Below are positions 48,602 through 55,317 of a DNA stretch of 55,317 bases, piece after piece. The notes beneath the pieces are model-generated. The model worked only from the letters and a program-made list of their open reading frames with translations. It searched no databases and had not been told where the DNA came from. Position numbers and translations under genes: made by a program. Source of the DNA: Bacteroidaceae bacterium (GTDB lineage Bacteria > Bacteroidota > Bacteroidia > Bacteroidales > Bacteroidaceae); contig JAFRTL010000018.1 of the NCBI GenBank assembly GCA_017427065.1, positions 1 through 55,317 on the forward strand, in the 5' to 3' direction. Each line of letters begins with the position of its first letter. Positions within the stretch are counted from its first letter, which is position 1.

Positions 48602-49663
48602 CTAGGCTTTCTGAATGTATTCAACCAACCAAGCACCAACTTCCTTAGTGCCATACTTGGCTCCACCTTCCACCTGAATGTCTGGAGTACGTACATTCTG
48701 GTCGATTGAAGCATCTACAGCATCACGAATAAGGTCGGCTTCTTTCTGCATACCAAAGTACTCGAACAGCATGGCATCTGAAAGTACCTGGGCCAACGGA
48801 TTGGCAATGTTCAAGCCTTTTGCCTGTGGCCAAGAACCATGTACAGGTTCAAAAACAGGTGTACTGTCACCAGTAGATGCAGATGGGAGCAAGCCCATGG
48901 AACCACTAATGCAAGAACTCTCATCTGTTAAGATATCGCCAAAAGTGTTTTCTGTCACAATCACATCGAAGAACTTAGGCTCCTGAATCATACGCATGGA
49001 GGCATTGTCCACATACATATAGTCGGTCTTAACATCAGGATATTCTTTCTCCAACTCCTGCCCTATCTGACGCCAAAGACGAGAAGAGGCCAGCACGTTA
49101 GCTTTATCTACGATGGTAAGGTGATGATTACGACGACGAGCATACTCATAGCCAACCTTGATGATACGCTCTATCTCTGGACGGGTGTAGTAGTTGGTGT
49201 CATAGGCCTTGTCATTGTCCTGGTATTTCTCACCGAAATACATACCACCGGTAAGCTCACGAATGGTGATGAAGTCGGCACCATCTACCAATTCAGGACG
49301 GAGTGGTGACTTATGCAACAAACTCTTGAATGTCTGCATAGGACGGACATTGGCATAAAGTCCCAGTTTCTTACGCATGGCCAACAAGCCTTGTTCAGGG
49401 CGTACTTTGGCAGTAGGATTATTGTCAAACTTTGGGTCGCCAACAGCAGAGAAAAGCACTGCATCGGCACGCAGACAGGTCTGGAAAGTCTCCTCTGGAA
49501 ATGGGTCGCCCACCTTATCAATGGCATCGGCTCCACAAATTGCATACTCATAAGTCACTTTGTGACCAAACTTCTCACACACGGCAGTCATCACATCGAC
49601 ACCCACCTTAGAAATCTCAGGTCCAATACCATCACCTGGCAGGACTGCAATCTTAAAATCCAT
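48602..49663 (-). CDS. leuB: 3-isopropylmalate dehydrogenase
   Basis: This 353-residue NAD-dependent enzyme oxidises and decarboxylates 3-isopropylmalate to 2-oxoisocaproate. [12 protein letters not shown] at the N-terminus, the [11 protein letters not shown] loop and the late block with FEPVHGSWP are diagnostic. It is the last gene of the leucine operon, 13 nt after the second synthase gene. Confidence 0.97.
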
Positions 49664-49676
49664 AGTGTTATCTTAA

Positions 49677-51245
49677 TTAATTATCGTTATCATACATATT
49701 TTCTTTGTTCAAGAAGTCATCCTCAATCATATTGAGCATCTTGACTGTAGCTTTGATAGCCGCTTCAGTCTGGTCAGCATCCAATCCTCGTGTACGGAAC
49801 TCCCTTCCAGCAAAACTCCAAGAAATGACTGTCTGCACCAATGCATCGGTACGGCCACCAGGAGGAATACTTACCACATAATTCGTCAGCATAGGGAACT
49901 TGCGGTTCAGTGTTTTCTTATACACATTGCGCAAGGCACGCACAAAAGCATCATACTGTCCATCACCACTGCTGCTCTCTTCATACTCATGTCCATTGAT
50001 CTCAATTTTCAGTGTTGCCATAGGCTTCAAGCCATGTGCCAGATTCACGAAATAGCTCTTCAGTTTAACCTTTTCTTCACCTATCACATTGTGCTTCAGC
50101 ACATCTGCAACGATATAAGGAAGGTCTTCTTGGGAAACAGTCTCTTTCTTATCACCCAGTTCAATGATACGGTCAGTCACTTTTCGCATGGTGGCTTCAT
50201 CAAGGTCCAGCCCAAGGTCTTCCAAGTTCTTGCGGATATTGGCCTTACCACTGTTCTTTCCCAAAGCATATTCTCTTCGCCTACCAAAGCGCTCTGGCAG
50301 AAGGTTGTTGCAATAGAGGTTCTTCTTATTATCACCATCGGCATGCACTCCAGCCACCTGTGTAAAGACATTCTCGCCAACAATGGGTTTATTTGGCGCA
50401 ATGGCAATGCCTGAATAGGATGATACCAAGAGACTGGCACGATAGAGTTGACTTTCCACAATGCTGGTTTCTATACCCATCTGGTCTTTCAACCCTGCTT
50501 GTACACTGGCAAGTGGCGCATTTCCAGCACGTTCTCCCAGACCATTAATGGTGACATGCAATCCTTTACAACCAGCCTGAACGGCAGCCAAGGAATTGCT
50601 GACAGCCAGGTCATAGTCGTTATGTCCGTGAAAATCAAAATGCGCATCAGTATAGCAACTCACAATATCACGCATATAGCGCATGGTATTCATGGGGTTC
50701 AGCACTCCCAATGTATCAGGGAGCATAAAACGCTTGATGCCCTGCCCTTGAAGGCCATCCATCAGATGATAGACATAATCAGGAGAGTCTTGTATACCAT
50801 TACTCCAGTCTTCCAAATAGACATTGACATCCATACCTTTCGATTGAGCGTAGGCAATGACCTTTCTGATATCCTCCAGATGTTCTTCGACCGATTTTTT
50901 CAGTTGATAGGTGCAATGCTTTTCTGAGCCTTTGCAGAGCAGGTTTATCACCTTACCACCTGCAGAGGTAATCCAATCTACAGAGGACTGACCATCCACA
51001 AAGCCCAGAACTTCAATCTTCTGAAGCATATCATGACGCTCTGCCCAGTTGCAGATAAGACGCACAGCCTCATGTTCTCCTTCAGAGACACGGGCTGACG
51101 CAACCTCTATGCGATCCAACTGAAGGTCGGATAACAAAAGGCGAGCTATCATCACCTTCTCATGGGGAACGAAAGATACTCCGCTGGTCTGCTCACCATC
51201 ACGGAGAGTAGTATCCATGAACTCTATCTTACGATTAATGCCCAT
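49677..51245 (-). CDS. Second 2-isopropylmalate synthase-like enzyme (possible citramalate synthase)
   Basis: This 522-residue protein condenses acetyl-CoA with a 2-oxoacid. It has the barrel motifs [12 protein letters not shown] (residues 11-22) and HGHND, and a C-terminal LeuA-type regulatory domain (about 385-515, with [16 protein letters not shown] and [12 protein letters not shown]). It is a paralogue of the operon's first gene but differs at key points (HGHND instead of [15 protein letters not shown] segment), so it may be a citramalate synthase making 2-oxobutyrate for isoleucine, or a second isopropylmalate synthase. Its start overlaps leuD by 11 nt. Confidence 0.85.
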
Positions 51246-51828
51246 GTCGATTCTCCCAAGCTTCTATTTTATCCTTGTTTTCCAATAAGAAATCTATATC
51301 GTCCAAACCATTCATCAAGCAATGCTTCTTATAGGCATTGATCTCGAAAGTCTCGCTCTTTCCCGTAGCAGTATTAGTAATTGTCTGATTAGGAAGATCA
51401 ACCACAACTTCCATTTTAGGGTTGGCGTAGATAGCATCGAACAACTCCTGAAGAAATGGCTCAGAAACGACCACTGGCAAAACAAAATTATTCAGTTCGT
51501 TGTTCTTATGGATATCGGCAAAAAAACTGCTTACCACTACTCTAAATCCATAACCAGCAATGGCCCAAGCTGCATGTTCACGGCTACTGCCACTACCAAA
51601 GTTCTTTCCTGCCACAAGTATTACTCCCCCATAAGTTGGATCATTGAGGACAAAATCCTTGATTGGATTACCCTGCTTGTCATAACGCCAATCACGGAAA
51701 AGATTGTCGCCAAATCCTTTCTTGTCAGTAGCTTTCAAGAAACGAGCTGGAATAATTTGGTCAGTATCCACATTCTCTAAAGGAAGGGGAACACAAGTGC
51801 TGGTTATAATATCGAATTTCTGTTTCAT
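51235..51828 (-). CDS. leuD: 3-isopropylmalate dehydratase small subunit
   Basis: This 197-residue subunit carries the swivel domain of isopropylmalate isomerase, with [14 protein letters not shown] near residue 20 and [13 protein letters not shown] near 75. It pairs with LeuC to isomerise 2- to 3-isopropylmalate. It begins 8 nt after leuC and its end overlaps the second synthase gene by 11 nt. Confidence 0.97.
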
Positions 51829-51836
51829 GTGCTGAA

Positions 51837-53231
51837 TTACATTAAAGTTCTTGGATCTGTTACTTCACCCGTAATAGCTGCAGCAGCTGCTACAAGCGGA
51901 CTTGCAAGGATGGTTCTGGAACCTGGTCCTTGGCGACCTTCAAAGTTTCGGTTGCTGGTAGACACGGCATATTTCCCTGCAGGAATCTTATCATCGTTCA
52001 TAGCTAAGCATGCAGAGCATCCTGGCTGGCGGATTTCAAAACCAGCGTCCTCAAGCACCTTATCAAGACCTTCTTCACGAATCTGCTGATCTACCATCCA
52101 TGAACCTGGAACCAACCATGCTATGATATTTTCTGCTTTCTTCTTGCCTTTCACTAACGAGGCAAATGCACGGAAATCTTCAATACGTCCGTTGGTACAA
52201 GCTCCTAAAAAGACATAGTCGATCTTCTTTCCAAGTAATTTATCACCAGGAAGGAAGCCCATATAGTTCAGTGACTTAGTGAATGATGCTTTGGCTGCTT
52301 CACCCATACCTTCAGTAGTAGGAATACTCTGAGTAATGCCCATACCCATACCTGGATTGGTCCCATAAGTCACCATAGGCTCTATATCAGCACCATCGAA
52401 CTGTAATTCTTTATCAAATACAGCATCTTCCCCACTCTTCAATGTCTTCCAGTATGCCACATGTTTCTCCCAGTCTTCTCCCTTCGGAGCATACTCGCGA
52501 CCCTTTACATATTCAAAAGTCTTCTCATCTGGGGCAATAAAACCTCCACGAGCACCCATCTCAATGGAAAGGTTGCACAGAGTCAGTCTGCCTTCCATAC
52601 TCATATCACGCACAACTTCACCAGCATATTCAATGAAATAGCCTGTGGCACCAGAAGTAGAAATCTTTGACATCAGATAGAGTGCTACATCTTTAGCTGT
52701 CACTCCTTTACCAAGCTTCCCATTCACGCTGATACGCATAGACTTAGGTTTCTGCTGAAGAATGCACTGAGAAGCCATAACCATCTCAACTTCACTAGTA
52801 CCAATACCAAAGGCAACGGCTCCCATCGCTCCATGCGTAGAGGTATGTGAGTCACCACAAACGATGGTCATACCAGGAAGGCTTAATCCTCTTTCTGGTC
52901 CTACCACATGAATGATTCCGTTCTTTGGGGTATTCATTCCGAAATGAGTCAGACCAAAATCAGCAGCATTTTTCTCTAAGGTATCTACCTGATTCTTTGA
53001 AACAGGATCTTCAATAGGCTTATCTTGATCATGGGTTGGTGTATTATGATCTGGCATACAGAAAATTTGTTCAGGACGGAAACATTTCAATCCTCTGCTT
53101 CGCATTCCTGCAAAAGCCTGTGGAGAAGTAACTTCATGACAATAGAGTCTGTCAATGTAGAGTTGTGTGGGACCATCTTCAACTTTTTGTACTATGTGAG
53201 CATCCCAGATTTTGTCAAATAATGTATTCAT
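51837..53231 (-). CDS. leuC: 3-isopropylmalate dehydratase large subunit
   Basis: This 464-residue aconitase-family subunit holds the 4Fe-4S cluster, with cysteines in FLGACTNGR (near residue 345) and [10 protein letters not shown] (near 405). [12 protein letters not shown] (around 145) is also typical. It works with LeuD. It lies 11 nt after leuA and 8 nt before leuD. Confidence 0.97.
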
Positions 53232-53242
53232 CGTATATATTC

Positions 53243-54748
53243 TTATTCTCTGATTCTGAACTTATTGATACAATCGATGTAGGCTTCAACAGAAGCAGTA
53301 ACGATATCGGTATTAGCCCCAAATCCATAGTAAAGGCTACCATCGTATTCTACCTGCATGTGCACCTTACCTACATCATCACTTCCCTTGCTGATGGCCT
53401 GAATCGTAAATTCCTTCAACGTCATCTGTTTCATGATAATCTTCTTTAAAGCTTTTATTGCAGCATCCACAGGACCATTACCTGTAGCAGCAGCTTCAAA
53501 CTTCTGATTTGAAATATCCAGTCCGATGCTCGCCACGCTTCTCACTCCCATTCCTGTTGTTACCTGTAAGAAATCGAGCTTAATAGCATGAGAAGCGGTA
53601 CGATCAGCTCCTGCCAACATTAAGATATCATCGTCTGTGATATCTTTCTTTTGGTCAGCAAGACGCAAGAATGCCTGATAGATCTTATCAACTTTTTCTT
53701 CGTCATCTACATTTACTCCAAGGACACTCAGTCGGTACTTCAACGCAGCTCTTCCACTTCTAGCAGTAAGTACAATGGAGTTCTCATCCAGACCCACATC
53801 TTTCGGATCCATGATTTCATAAGTCTTCACATTCTTCAATACTCCATCTTGATGAATACCACTGGAATGTGCAAAAGCATTTCTTCCAACTACAGCTTTA
53901 TTTGGCTGAACAGGCATATTCATCAAACTGCTGACTAACCTACTTACTGGGTAAATTTTGGTAGTATTAATATTGGTGTCTATATTTAAATACTTATGGC
54001 ATTTTAGAATCATGGCAATTTCCTCAAGAGATGTGTTACCAGCACGTTCACCTATTCCATTGATAGTAACCTCCACTTGACGGGCACCAGCCAATACACC
54101 ATTTAAGGTATTAGCTGTGGCCATACCTAAATCGTTATGACAATGTGTAGAAATAATCGCATTATCTATACCATCAACATGTTCTTTGAGATATTTGATT
54201 TTTTCGAAATACTCTTGTGGTAGGCAATATCCCGTTGTATCTGGAATATTCACAACGGTAGCTCCTGCTTTAACCACAGCCTCTACTACACGTGCAAGAT
54301 ACTCATTATCAGTTCGTCCTGCATCTTCTGCATAGAATTCCACATCATCCACATATTTTCTAGCATATTTTACTGCTGCAACTGCACGTTCGATGATTTC
54401 TTCGCGATTGGAGTTAAATTTATACTTAATATGAGGATCACTAGTACCTATTCCCGTATGGATACGTTTACGCTTAGCATATTTCAAGGAGTCAACAGCT
54501 ACATCTATATCCTTCTGTACGGCACGCGTCAATGCGCAGATAGTTGGCCAAGTTACAGCCTTCGATATTTCTATGACAGAATTAAAATCGCCAGGACTAG
54601 AAATAGGAAATCCTGCTTCAATCACATCTACACCCAAAGACTCCAGTTGCTTCGCTACTTGAATCTTTTCCACAGTATTCAATTGACAACCAGGAACTTG
54701 TTCTCCATCACGTAAAGTGGTGTCGAAAATAAATAAACGCTCACTCAT
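53243..54748 (-). CDS. leuA: 2-isopropylmalate synthase
   Basis: This 501-residue enzyme condenses acetyl-CoA and 2-oxoisovalerate in the first committed step of leucine synthesis. [15 protein letters not shown] (9-23), the HCHNDLGMA metal site and [14 protein letters not shown]-type segment are present, followed by the C-terminal regulatory domain for leucine feedback (about 375-500, with [10 protein letters not shown]). It is the first structural gene of leuA-leuC-leuD-leuA2-leuB, preceded by an attenuator. Confidence 0.97.
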
Positions 54749-54777
54749 ATACTTTTATATATTACATTCAAATTAAA

Positions 54778-54807
54778 AGCCTTTCACACTATGAAGTGAG
54801 AAAGGCT
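54778..54807 (-). terminator. Attenuator terminator of the leucine operon
   Basis: On the minus strand a 13-bp stem with one mismatch and a 4-nt loop (54807-54795 with 54790-54778) is followed by TTTTAATTT, ending 29 nt before the leuA ATG. It lies between promoter and first gene, so it is an attenuator rather than an operon terminator. Confidence 0.85.
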
Positions 54808-54852
54808 CTATTTTATCCATGATCTACATACTTATGCACCAAACTCACTTCA
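54792..54852 (-). promoter_or_regulatory. Antiterminator pairing of the leu leader
   Basis: In the leader RNA the nonamer UGAAGUGAG (54852-54844), which includes the leader peptide stop codon, is perfectly complementary to CUCACUUCA (54800-54792), most of the 5' arm plus the loop of the attenuator. The two pairings exclude each other. A ribosome stalled on the Leu or Ile codons leaves the nonamer free; one that reaches the stop codon covers it. Confidence 0.8.
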
Positions 54853-54918
54853 ACTAACATTCGCCAGTCGAATAATAATACCCAATAGTAGGTTGCTGTA
54901 TATAGATAATCTTATCAT
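54850..54918 (-). CDS. Leucine operon leader peptide
   Basis: A 22-codon frame from ATG (54918-54916) to TGA (54852-54850) lies about 16 nt after the predicted transcription start. Eleven of 22 residues are branched-chain: Leu at 4, 10, 11, 12 and 18 (codons TTA, CTA, CTA, TTG, CTG), Ile at 2, 6, 14, 15 and 16, and Val at 21. The runs LLL and III are adjacent. Its stop codon sits inside the antiterminator nonamer. This is the hallmark of a translation-controlled attenuation peptide sensing charged tRNA-Leu and tRNA-Ile. Too short for routine gene callers. Confidence 0.85.
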   Translation of the reverse strand: MIRLSIYSNLLLGIIIRLANVS

Positions 54919-54940
54919 AATTCTATTTTAAAAATCGCTG

Positions 54941-54971
54941 CAAAGTTATCAAATAAATTGCATGTAACAAA
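54941..54971 (-). promoter_or_regulatory. Promoter of the leucine operon
   Basis: On the minus strand TTTG (54971-54968), 19 nt, then TAACTTTG (54948-54941): a full consensus. The start should be near 54934, giving a leader of about 186 nt to leuA. Confidence 0.85.
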
Positions 54972-55056
54972 CAAATCGTTTACTTTTTTACCCCAATATC
55001 TAACATATTTGCAAAATTAAGGAATAGAATTATATAAATCCTTCATTTATGAACAA

Positions 55057-55093
55057 AAAAAGGCGGGTGGACTCCTGTTGGAATCCACCCGCT
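55057..55093 (-). terminator. Terminator of the rRNA operon
   Basis: GCGGGTGGA (55092-55084 on the minus strand) pairs with TCCACCCGC (55071-55063), a perfect 9-bp GC-rich stem, followed by CTTTTTTTG. Confidence 0.92.
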
Positions 55094-55099
55094 CTAGCA

Positions 55100-55212
55100 A
55101 GACGGCAGCTACCTACTCTCCCACCCGTCAGGGCAGTACCATCGGCGTAGGCGGGCTTAACTTCTCTGTTCGGGATGGGAAGAGGTGGAACCCCGCCGCA
55201 ATAGCCACCTGA
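55100..55212 (-). rRNA. rrf: 5S ribosomal RNA
   Basis: On the minus strand the sequence contains the universal 5S block with CCCATCCCGAACAGAGAAG and GTTAAGCCCGCC. Helix I forms between GGUGGCUA at the 5' end (55209-55202) and UAGCUGCC near the 3' end. The ends are accurate to a few bases. As it is read leftwards, the 23S gene should lie beyond the right edge. Confidence 0.95.
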
Positions 55213-55317
55213 ATAAGGGTGACACACTGACTCAAGTCAAAGTCATTCATCAAACCTTGAAACGAACGGCGCACTGTACCGCAGCTGCGGACCATTTCGG
55301 GGATATGCGTCCCCATA
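55213..55317 (-). other. Spacer upstream of 5S rRNA
   Basis: About 105 nt between 5S and the window edge. It contains a 12-bp palindrome CCGCAGCTGCGG (55279-55290) and a small hairpin GGGGA/TCCCC (55299-55314). I do not recognise the 3' end of 23S, so this is probably intergenic spacer. Confidence 0.5.

Follow-up and report, generated by a model that had tools for sequence, protein, structure and literature searches.

We analysed a 55,317-nucleotide (nt) stretch of DNA, the window, which corresponds to contig JAFRTL010000018.1 of a Bacteroidaceae bacterium (assembly GCA_017427065.1, 83% complete). An attenuator-like feature is present on its minus strand, between a 5S ribosomal RNA (rRNA) gene (55212-55100) and the leuA gene (54748-53243), with the gene order leuA-leuC-leuD-cimA-leuB behind the leader. 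A sequence-only reading of this DNA had proposed that the feature is a leader-peptide attenuator of the leucine operon. We hold with high confidence that it mediates ribosome-dependent transcription attenuation of a leu-cimA operon and senses charged transfer RNAs (tRNAs) for leucine (Leu) and isoleucine (Ile). Its parts are as follows.

54941-54971, minus strand: promoter-like site of the Bacteroidota type, composed of TTTG (54971-54968), 19 nt and TAACTTTG (54948-54941); read from the sequence
54850-54918, minus strand: leader frame MIRLSIYSNLLLGIIIRLANVS, with ATG at 54918, 22 codons and TGA at 54852-54850; frame reading and shuffles
54849-54872, minus strand: predicted leader (1:2) hairpin, TTCGACTGGC (54872-54863) with GTTAGTTGAA (54858-54849), occupying the 5' part of segment 2
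54844-54852, minus strand: antiterminator segment (segment 2) TGAAGTGAG, which in the window begins at the leader stop codon; complementarity and covariation
54792-54800, minus strand: segment 3 CTCACTTCA, whose partner is segment 2 or, in part, the 3' arm of the terminator; complementarity and covariation
54774-54808, minus strand: predicted intrinsic terminator hairpin (3:4; 54808-54777) with a short U tract TTTTAATTT; fold and covariation

The leader switch

In place of the promoter announced before the leader there is a promoter-like site, in which TTTG, 19 nt and TAACTTTG follow the Bacteroides promoter consensus. The leader codes for five Leu, five Ile and one valine (Val), i.e. the 11 branched-chain codons counted earlier, and the Ile/Leu richness of the frame was matched by 1 of 200 shuffles subjected to the same frame-choice rule (p 0.005). 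Its likely control codons are CTA CTA TTG and ATT ATT ATT. By eye, no Shine-Dalgarno sequence is apparent for this frame.

The terminator hairpin before leuA, also part of the initial description, has a predicted energy of -18.8 kcal/mol (z -5.5), and none of 200 shuffles folds as well. The nine nucleotides TGAAGTGAG (54852-54844) are perfectly complementary to CTCACTTCA (54800-54792), and the antiterminator region reaches -18.7 kcal/mol (z -2.8; 1 of 200 shuffles folds as well). Terminator and antiterminator are thus predicted to be near equal in energy, balanced as a switch requires. The strongest local hairpin of the leader is TTCGACTGGC/GTTAGTTGAA, at -10.5 kcal/mol (z -3.8; 0 of 200 shuffles as good), and it replaces the pause hairpin between CAAC-C-UA and UAGUUG that had been suggested, which we rejected.

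According to the mechanism that we propose, a ribosome would enter the leader frame behind RNA polymerase. If charged tRNA-Leu and tRNA-Ile were plentiful, it would pass the Leu and Ile codons, reach the stop codon and cover segment 2, so that the 3:4 terminator would form. If either tRNA were poorly charged, the ribosome would stall on CTA CTA TTG or on ATT ATT ATT and disrupt the 1:2 hairpin; segment 2, left free, would pair with segment 3, and transcription would proceed into leuA. Were the leader not translated, the 1:2 hairpin would hold segment 2 and termination would prevail. Geometrically, 18 nt separate the end of the last ATT codon from segment 2, so that segment 2 should stay free when a ribosome stalls at that codon and should be covered when the ribosome stands at the stop codon. 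We infer ribosome stalling, ribosome-polymerase coupling and a response to leucine and isoleucine from this anatomy and, among relatives, from its conservation, the covariation of terminator and antiterminator, the codon bias of the leaders and the association of Ile codons with cimA.

Conservation, covariation and codon usage

We searched for leuA in genomes of the genus (60), the family (61) and the order (99), some of which are shared, and retrieved 80 named loci. The 168 leuA loci yielded 167 upstream regions, 162 of them distinct. A terminator-like hairpin is present at most 165 nt from leuA in 141 of the 162, and in 130 of those 141 the hairpin with the best score is accompanied by a complementary segment further upstream (-8 kcal/mol or better). 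A second rule, by which any qualifying hairpin was accepted, kept 131 upstreams for the frame test. Altogether, 129 of the 162 distinct upstreams harbour a short frame, averaging 26 codons, together with a terminator and a competing segment. The alignment check that the sequence-only reading had called for thus comes out in its favour. The frame is rich in Ile and Leu at a shuffle p <= 0.05 in 106 of the 131 upstreams, and at p <= 0.005 in 21 of them; among the frames near segment 2, the one with the highest Ile and Leu content was taken, with the shuffles handled alike. Many leaders of the window's genus share the core ILLCGIIILL, and many Prevotella-titled loci the core NLLNxIIIIRL.

The stop codon is found 17-25 nt past the start of segment 2 in 98 of the 129 leaders, and therefore the antiterminator is normally translated as the last codons of the frame (often ..GSE..). 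This modifies the initial picture of a competing segment lying over the leader stop codon: the exact complementarity stands, but in relatives the segment is usually inside a longer frame. The frame ends early in the window and in its 98% relative, L003. At the aligned position where most close relatives read GGA, the window reads TGA, and its stop codon looks like a derived truncation of a longer frame.

The spread of the leader among relatives was assessed in 120 order-level regions. A leader at shuffle p <= 0.1 occurs in 41 of 60 regions whose leuA is at least 75% identical, in 5 of 14 at 70-74% and in 12 of 46 below. Thus, the attenuator thins out with leuA distance.

Covariation was analysed in an alignment of 101 of the 109 leaders at <= 88% identity, with eight more distant ones excluded. 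For the antiterminator, 92.2% of cells are paired, and both-side changes occur in eight of nine pairs; the corresponding values for the terminator are 95.0% and 8 of 11 pairs. The covariation sought in both helices was therefore found. Slid registers pair at most 63.1% (antiterminator) and 67.3% (terminator) of cells. The observed values were reached by none of 500 shuffles on every measure except the number of terminator pairs with both-side changes (1 of 500), bearing in mind that related sequences can beat such shuffles even without structure.

Several observations weigh against an attenuator of this design. The U tract of the window terminator is short. No full set was detected in 33 of the 162 upstreams, including those of the close relatives L005 and L007, and therefore the attenuator is dispensable. 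An antiterminator register slid by +2 equals the true one in both-side changes (8 pairs, 17 cells) and exceeds it in pair types (22 versus 18), but only 39.4% of its cells are paired and its covariation score is 0.038, versus 0.124 for the true register. The 1:2 helix fares less well. In the window register, 58.7% of its cells are paired, 264 of 500 shuffles are as good, and sliding by one column gives better pairing (75.3%); the register of this helix varies among relatives. The local leader hairpins have a mean z of -0.88, and only 22 of 100 are better than 95% of their shuffles. Nevertheless, all 100 leaders that were folded locally are predicted to form a hairpin that includes the 5' end of segment 2, and we regard the 1:2 helix as likely rather than demonstrated.

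Two groups of upstreams deserve a separate description. In L005, L007, L091, L093 and L106 (leuA 91-92% identical), the rule used detects no terminator; by eye, a promoter-like site stands just upstream of leuA and the leader is absent, and the attenuator has probably been lost. L341 (genome G500), L343 (G521) and L357 (G516) have, upstream of leuA, a terminator-like hairpin of the CCTTTCTT type shortly after the promoter region, with no leader frame seen. Those hairpins are possibly relics of the attenuator.

Codon usage distinguishes the leaders from the genes that they precede. Ile and Leu account for 17.1% and 16.5% of the codons of the 129 leaders, versus 8.7% and 6.5% in the downstream leuA genes, although these raw percentages are biased upward by the choice of frame. 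Of the 539 Leu codons in the leaders, 193 (36%) are CTA, versus 2% in leuA, and ATT represents 85% of leader Ile codons versus 36%. At least one CTA is found in 95 of 109 less redundant leaders, and the bootstrap range of the CTA share is 0.30-0.38. The rare CGA codon is similarly enriched, at 40% of leader arginine codons versus 4% in leuA, perhaps owing to its position in the 1:2 helix. In passages of PMC1183508, the leu attenuator of Salmonella is described as having three CUA control codons, as is their replacement by CUG, and theory presents CUA as the most suitable leu control codon for Escherichia coli. The preference for CTA in our leaders is what tRNA-charging theory would favour, with a codon that also serves in Salmonella.

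The same data bear on two other explanations. T-boxes control branched-chain amino acid genes elsewhere, and a T-box or another ligand-binding RNA might govern the terminator here, the short frame being incidental. We consider this extremely improbable. The sole Rfam match at gathering score over the window is the 5S rRNA; at a relaxed threshold, the best match in 54700-55000 scores 23.2 bits for a cut-off of 54, and neither T-box (RF00230) nor Leu_leader (RF00512) is listed. A known Rfam element, T-box included, was thus ruled out for the window leader by the lack of a match. Moreover, conservation extends to the frame, which shows a bias among synonymous codons, and at the RNA level it falls on the competing helices. 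It is also quite improbable, if a little less so, that the leader works by arrest of the nascent peptide or by acting on leuA translation, instead of through codon-specific stalling ahead of an intrinsic terminator: an intrinsic terminator and a competing antiterminator are conserved, and the peptide drifts widely while its Ile and Leu residues persist, in frames chosen for their Ile/Leu content.

Isoleucine codons and cimA

The operon comprises the following genes.

53243-54748, minus strand: leuA, 2-isopropylmalate synthase, first gene of the operon (TIGR00973, 664.7 bits, over cut-off)
51837-53231, minus strand: leuC, isopropylmalate dehydratase large subunit (TIGR00170, over cut-off)
51235-51828, minus strand: leuD, isopropylmalate dehydratase small subunit (TIGR00171, over cut-off)
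49677-51245, minus strand: cimA-like gene, putative (R)-citramalate synthase (best NCBIfam model CimA NF042433, 635.9 bits, below the cut-off of 950)
48602-49663, minus strand: leuB, 3-isopropylmalate dehydrogenase (TIGR00169, over cut-off)

Citramalate synthase is the entry to isoleucine via the citramalate pathway, and leuB is common to the leucine and citramalate pathways. The best solved relative of the fourth gene product is the Leptospira citramalate synthase 3ble (E 1.8e-113), the next match being at E 4.9e-54. Its identity as cimA is likely rather than certain, because its score stays below the NCBIfam CimA cut-off.

A single rule that took no account of cimA was used to score the 120 order-level leuA regions. 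They include 84 regions with cimA on the same strand, 26 without and 10 undecided, in which leaders were found in 55, 9 and 3 cases, respectively. With no filter, at least three Ile codons are present in 51 of the 55 leaders whose region includes cimA, versus 3 of 9 without (Fisher p 0.0002). The values are 38 of 39 versus 3 of 8 with a structure-only filter (p 0.0002) and 51 of 54 versus 3 of 7 with a filter at shuffle p <= 0.2 (p 0.002), none of these Fisher values, nor the following one, being corrected for kinship. In contrast, the stricter filter at shuffle p <= 0.1 leaves 50 of 51 versus 3 of 4, a non-significant difference (p 0.14). In our own reading, this value arises as leaders that lose Ile codons score lower on the very enrichment that serves as filter. 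Fewer than three Ile codons are found in 10 of the 129 leaders (L052, L060, L068, L073, L080, L087, L103, L104, L112 and L134), among which L103, L104, L112 and L134 carry no cimA call.

Because they contain genomes lacking cimA next to leuA, three families (39, 39 and 3 genomes) were examined further, and 50 genomes were screened for the CimA protein. In family f26, leuA was found in 24 of 39 genomes, 16 of them without a readable leader. The leaders with cimA (G515, G499, G427, G495, G510 and G511) have 5, 5, 4, 6, 8 and 6 Ile codons, that of G510 having been missed by the rule and read by eye. Those of G142 and G507, without cimA, have no Ile codon, with 6 and 11 Leu codons, respectively. 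The most direct contrast is between G499, whose leader ends with MNSIILSLSIIGLTLSK and is accompanied by cimA, and G142, whose similar leader, MNTTLLSLSLTSGLTLSK, is not. In family f9, the leaders without cimA have 1 (G339), 1 (G419) and 0 (G458; by eye, genome 85% complete) Ile codons; that of G466 (84% complete) has at most four depending on the start codon, and the frame of G125 is doubtful. In family f59, cimA is located away from leuA, and the leaders of G175, G280 and G372 have 2, 0 and 0 Ile codons and 8, 9 and 9 Leu codons, the last two being read by eye.

When 70 leaders are placed on a leuA tree, at least three Ile codons occur in 55 of 56 leaders with cimA in the operon and in 4 of 14 without; parsimony requires seven changes for cimA in the operon and eight for the Ile state. 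This set is partly hand-made, and the Fisher value printed for it, 2.6e-8, ignores kinship and selection and is not a probability. Four cimA leaders with p > 0.1 (3, 0, 0 and 0 Ile codons) were dropped from it, as were the doubtful L176 and L248, without cimA (no Ile codon each), and the undecided L253 (four). Conversely, 19 leaders were added by hand. These comprise ten without a shuffle test, as well as, among others, L183, L303 and L314, which a threshold of p <= 0.1 would exclude.

A simple rule by which the lack of cimA beside leuA entails the lack of Ile codons was rejected: it fails for G121, G239 and G416 (5, 4 and 3 Ile codons), which have cimA elsewhere in the genome. Family f5 is an exception of this kind and retains 3-5 Ile codons with cimA elsewhere; in G416, none of the remaining leu genes was seen next to leuA. 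Further exceptions are G172 (one Ile codon, cimA elsewhere in the genome), G466, with up to four Ile codons without cimA, and L274 and L052, with two and one, respectively, despite cimA being near. Ile codons have been lost in several lineages without cimA, and their link with cimA depends on the filter used.

The attenuator could be real and yet sense leucine only, with Ile codons that carry no signal and persist through descent or because of RNA structure. The low counts of L052 and L274 and the non-significant result at the strict filter are in line with this, as is the overlap of the last ATT codon with the 5' arm of the 1:2 hairpin, where it could be conserved as RNA. The counts without a filter and with the two other filters argue the opposite, together with the similar leaders of G499 and G142, which differ by their Ile codons, and with G507, whose leader, without cimA, has 11 Leu codons and no Ile. 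We thus consider a leucine-only sensor unlikely.

Dual sensing of leucine and isoleucine, a guess of the sequence-only reading, is strengthened by the loss of Ile codons without cimA and by a Val-rich ilvD leader, notwithstanding the one strict filter. The same genome has an ilvD gene preceded by the leader MNKLTSLNLVDLIIVRLVVVEL and by a terminator whose core, CCTTTCTCAC, is shared with the leu attenuator (L169, 3460-3310, minus strand). Given this shared core, the two leaders may be of common descent. The attenuator set is present in 29 of 30 ilvD upstreams examined in the genus, with L231 lacking it. These ilvD leaders average 2.9 Ile, 3.4 Leu and 4.9 Val codons, versus 5.0, 4.2 and 0.7 for 31 leu leaders of the same genus, the ilvD frames having been picked for Ile, Leu and Val and the leu frames for Ile and Leu. 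The genome also harbours a Bacteroid-trp element (RF01692), over its cut-off, with a short frame, MRHSVYTYWWWRPLQLT, that is rich in tryptophan (by eye). Leader composition thus appears to follow the operon product.

We lean towards a two-input sensor whose codon list would evolve with the metabolic role of the transcript. A transcript of the citramalate route would read Leu and Ile, the loss of cimA or a solitary leuA would lead to reading Leu only, and the sister ilvD leader would read Val too. The natural losses of cimA offer a comparative test of how such a sensor may switch specificity by codon replacement.

A second, lower-scoring relative of ilvD, below the TIGR00110 cut-off, was found in G000 (C7:55581-57239), G006, G008, G013, G023, G027 and G029 among 41 genus genomes.

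Known attenuators and genomic setting

Leader-peptide attenuation is established in Proteobacteria, and attenuators have reportedly been predicted in Bacteroidetes by Vitreschak in 2004. The enterobacterial leu attenuator (leuL; RF00512) similarly places a short leader ahead of the leu operon, with Leu codons in succession, CUA among them. Unlike it, the window leader has no Rfam match, combines Leu and Ile codons, has no Shine-Dalgarno sequence by eye and precedes a leuACD-cimA-leuB operon; its antiterminator segment lies within the frame or at its end, and the comparison is by description. In the enterobacterial ilvGMEDA and ilvBN operons, one leader reads several branched-chain amino acids. 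Likened by description, they share this multi-amino-acid reading with our leader, and the ilvD leader of this genome is of similar make-up, whereas the genes and the phylum differ. Both operons are listed as attenuated in a passage of PMC1183508.

Within Bacteroidota, Bacteroid-trp is presented as a cis-regulatory RNA of Bacteroidetes (in part of PMC2864571); by its name it concerns tryptophan genes, and it is a different RNA model, with no match to the window. Leader-peptide attenuation has been proposed for Flavobacterium psychrophilum, of the same phylum, in a passage of PMC9723704 that leaves the operons unnamed, and short frames of Bacteroides thetaiotaomicron are called 'reminiscent of leader peptides' in a passage of PMC7366714. 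The actinobacterial LEU element, as described in part of PMC1262725, is a leader upstream of leuA that also has a run of Leu codons. It is set apart, by description, by a pseudoknot whose base stem pairs the Leu codons with the leuA Shine-Dalgarno sequence, and classical attenuation is called unlikely there. Passages of PMC3766115, PMC2965389 and PMC6429828 do not name a leu leader of Bacteroidales. Among the open-access matches listed, none reports the window leader or the Ile-cimA link, subscription papers being mostly outside this scope. The attenuation mechanism is thus already known and has been suggested before in Bacteroidota, and the codon-pathway association of Ile with cimA was not found among these open-access matches.

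Our analyses place a textbook switch ahead of the leucine operon in many Bacteroidales. This order is prominent in the gut, and no Rfam model matches the switch. If the mechanism is correct, ribosome and RNA polymerase would be coupled tightly enough in these bacteria for stalling in a leader to matter, apparently without a Shine-Dalgarno site.

Finally, the leu operon of the window is located directly behind the 5S rRNA gene (region 55060-55317), which has its own strong terminator-like hairpin. In many relatives, the contig ends some hundreds of bases before leuA, as would be expected at an rRNA operon.
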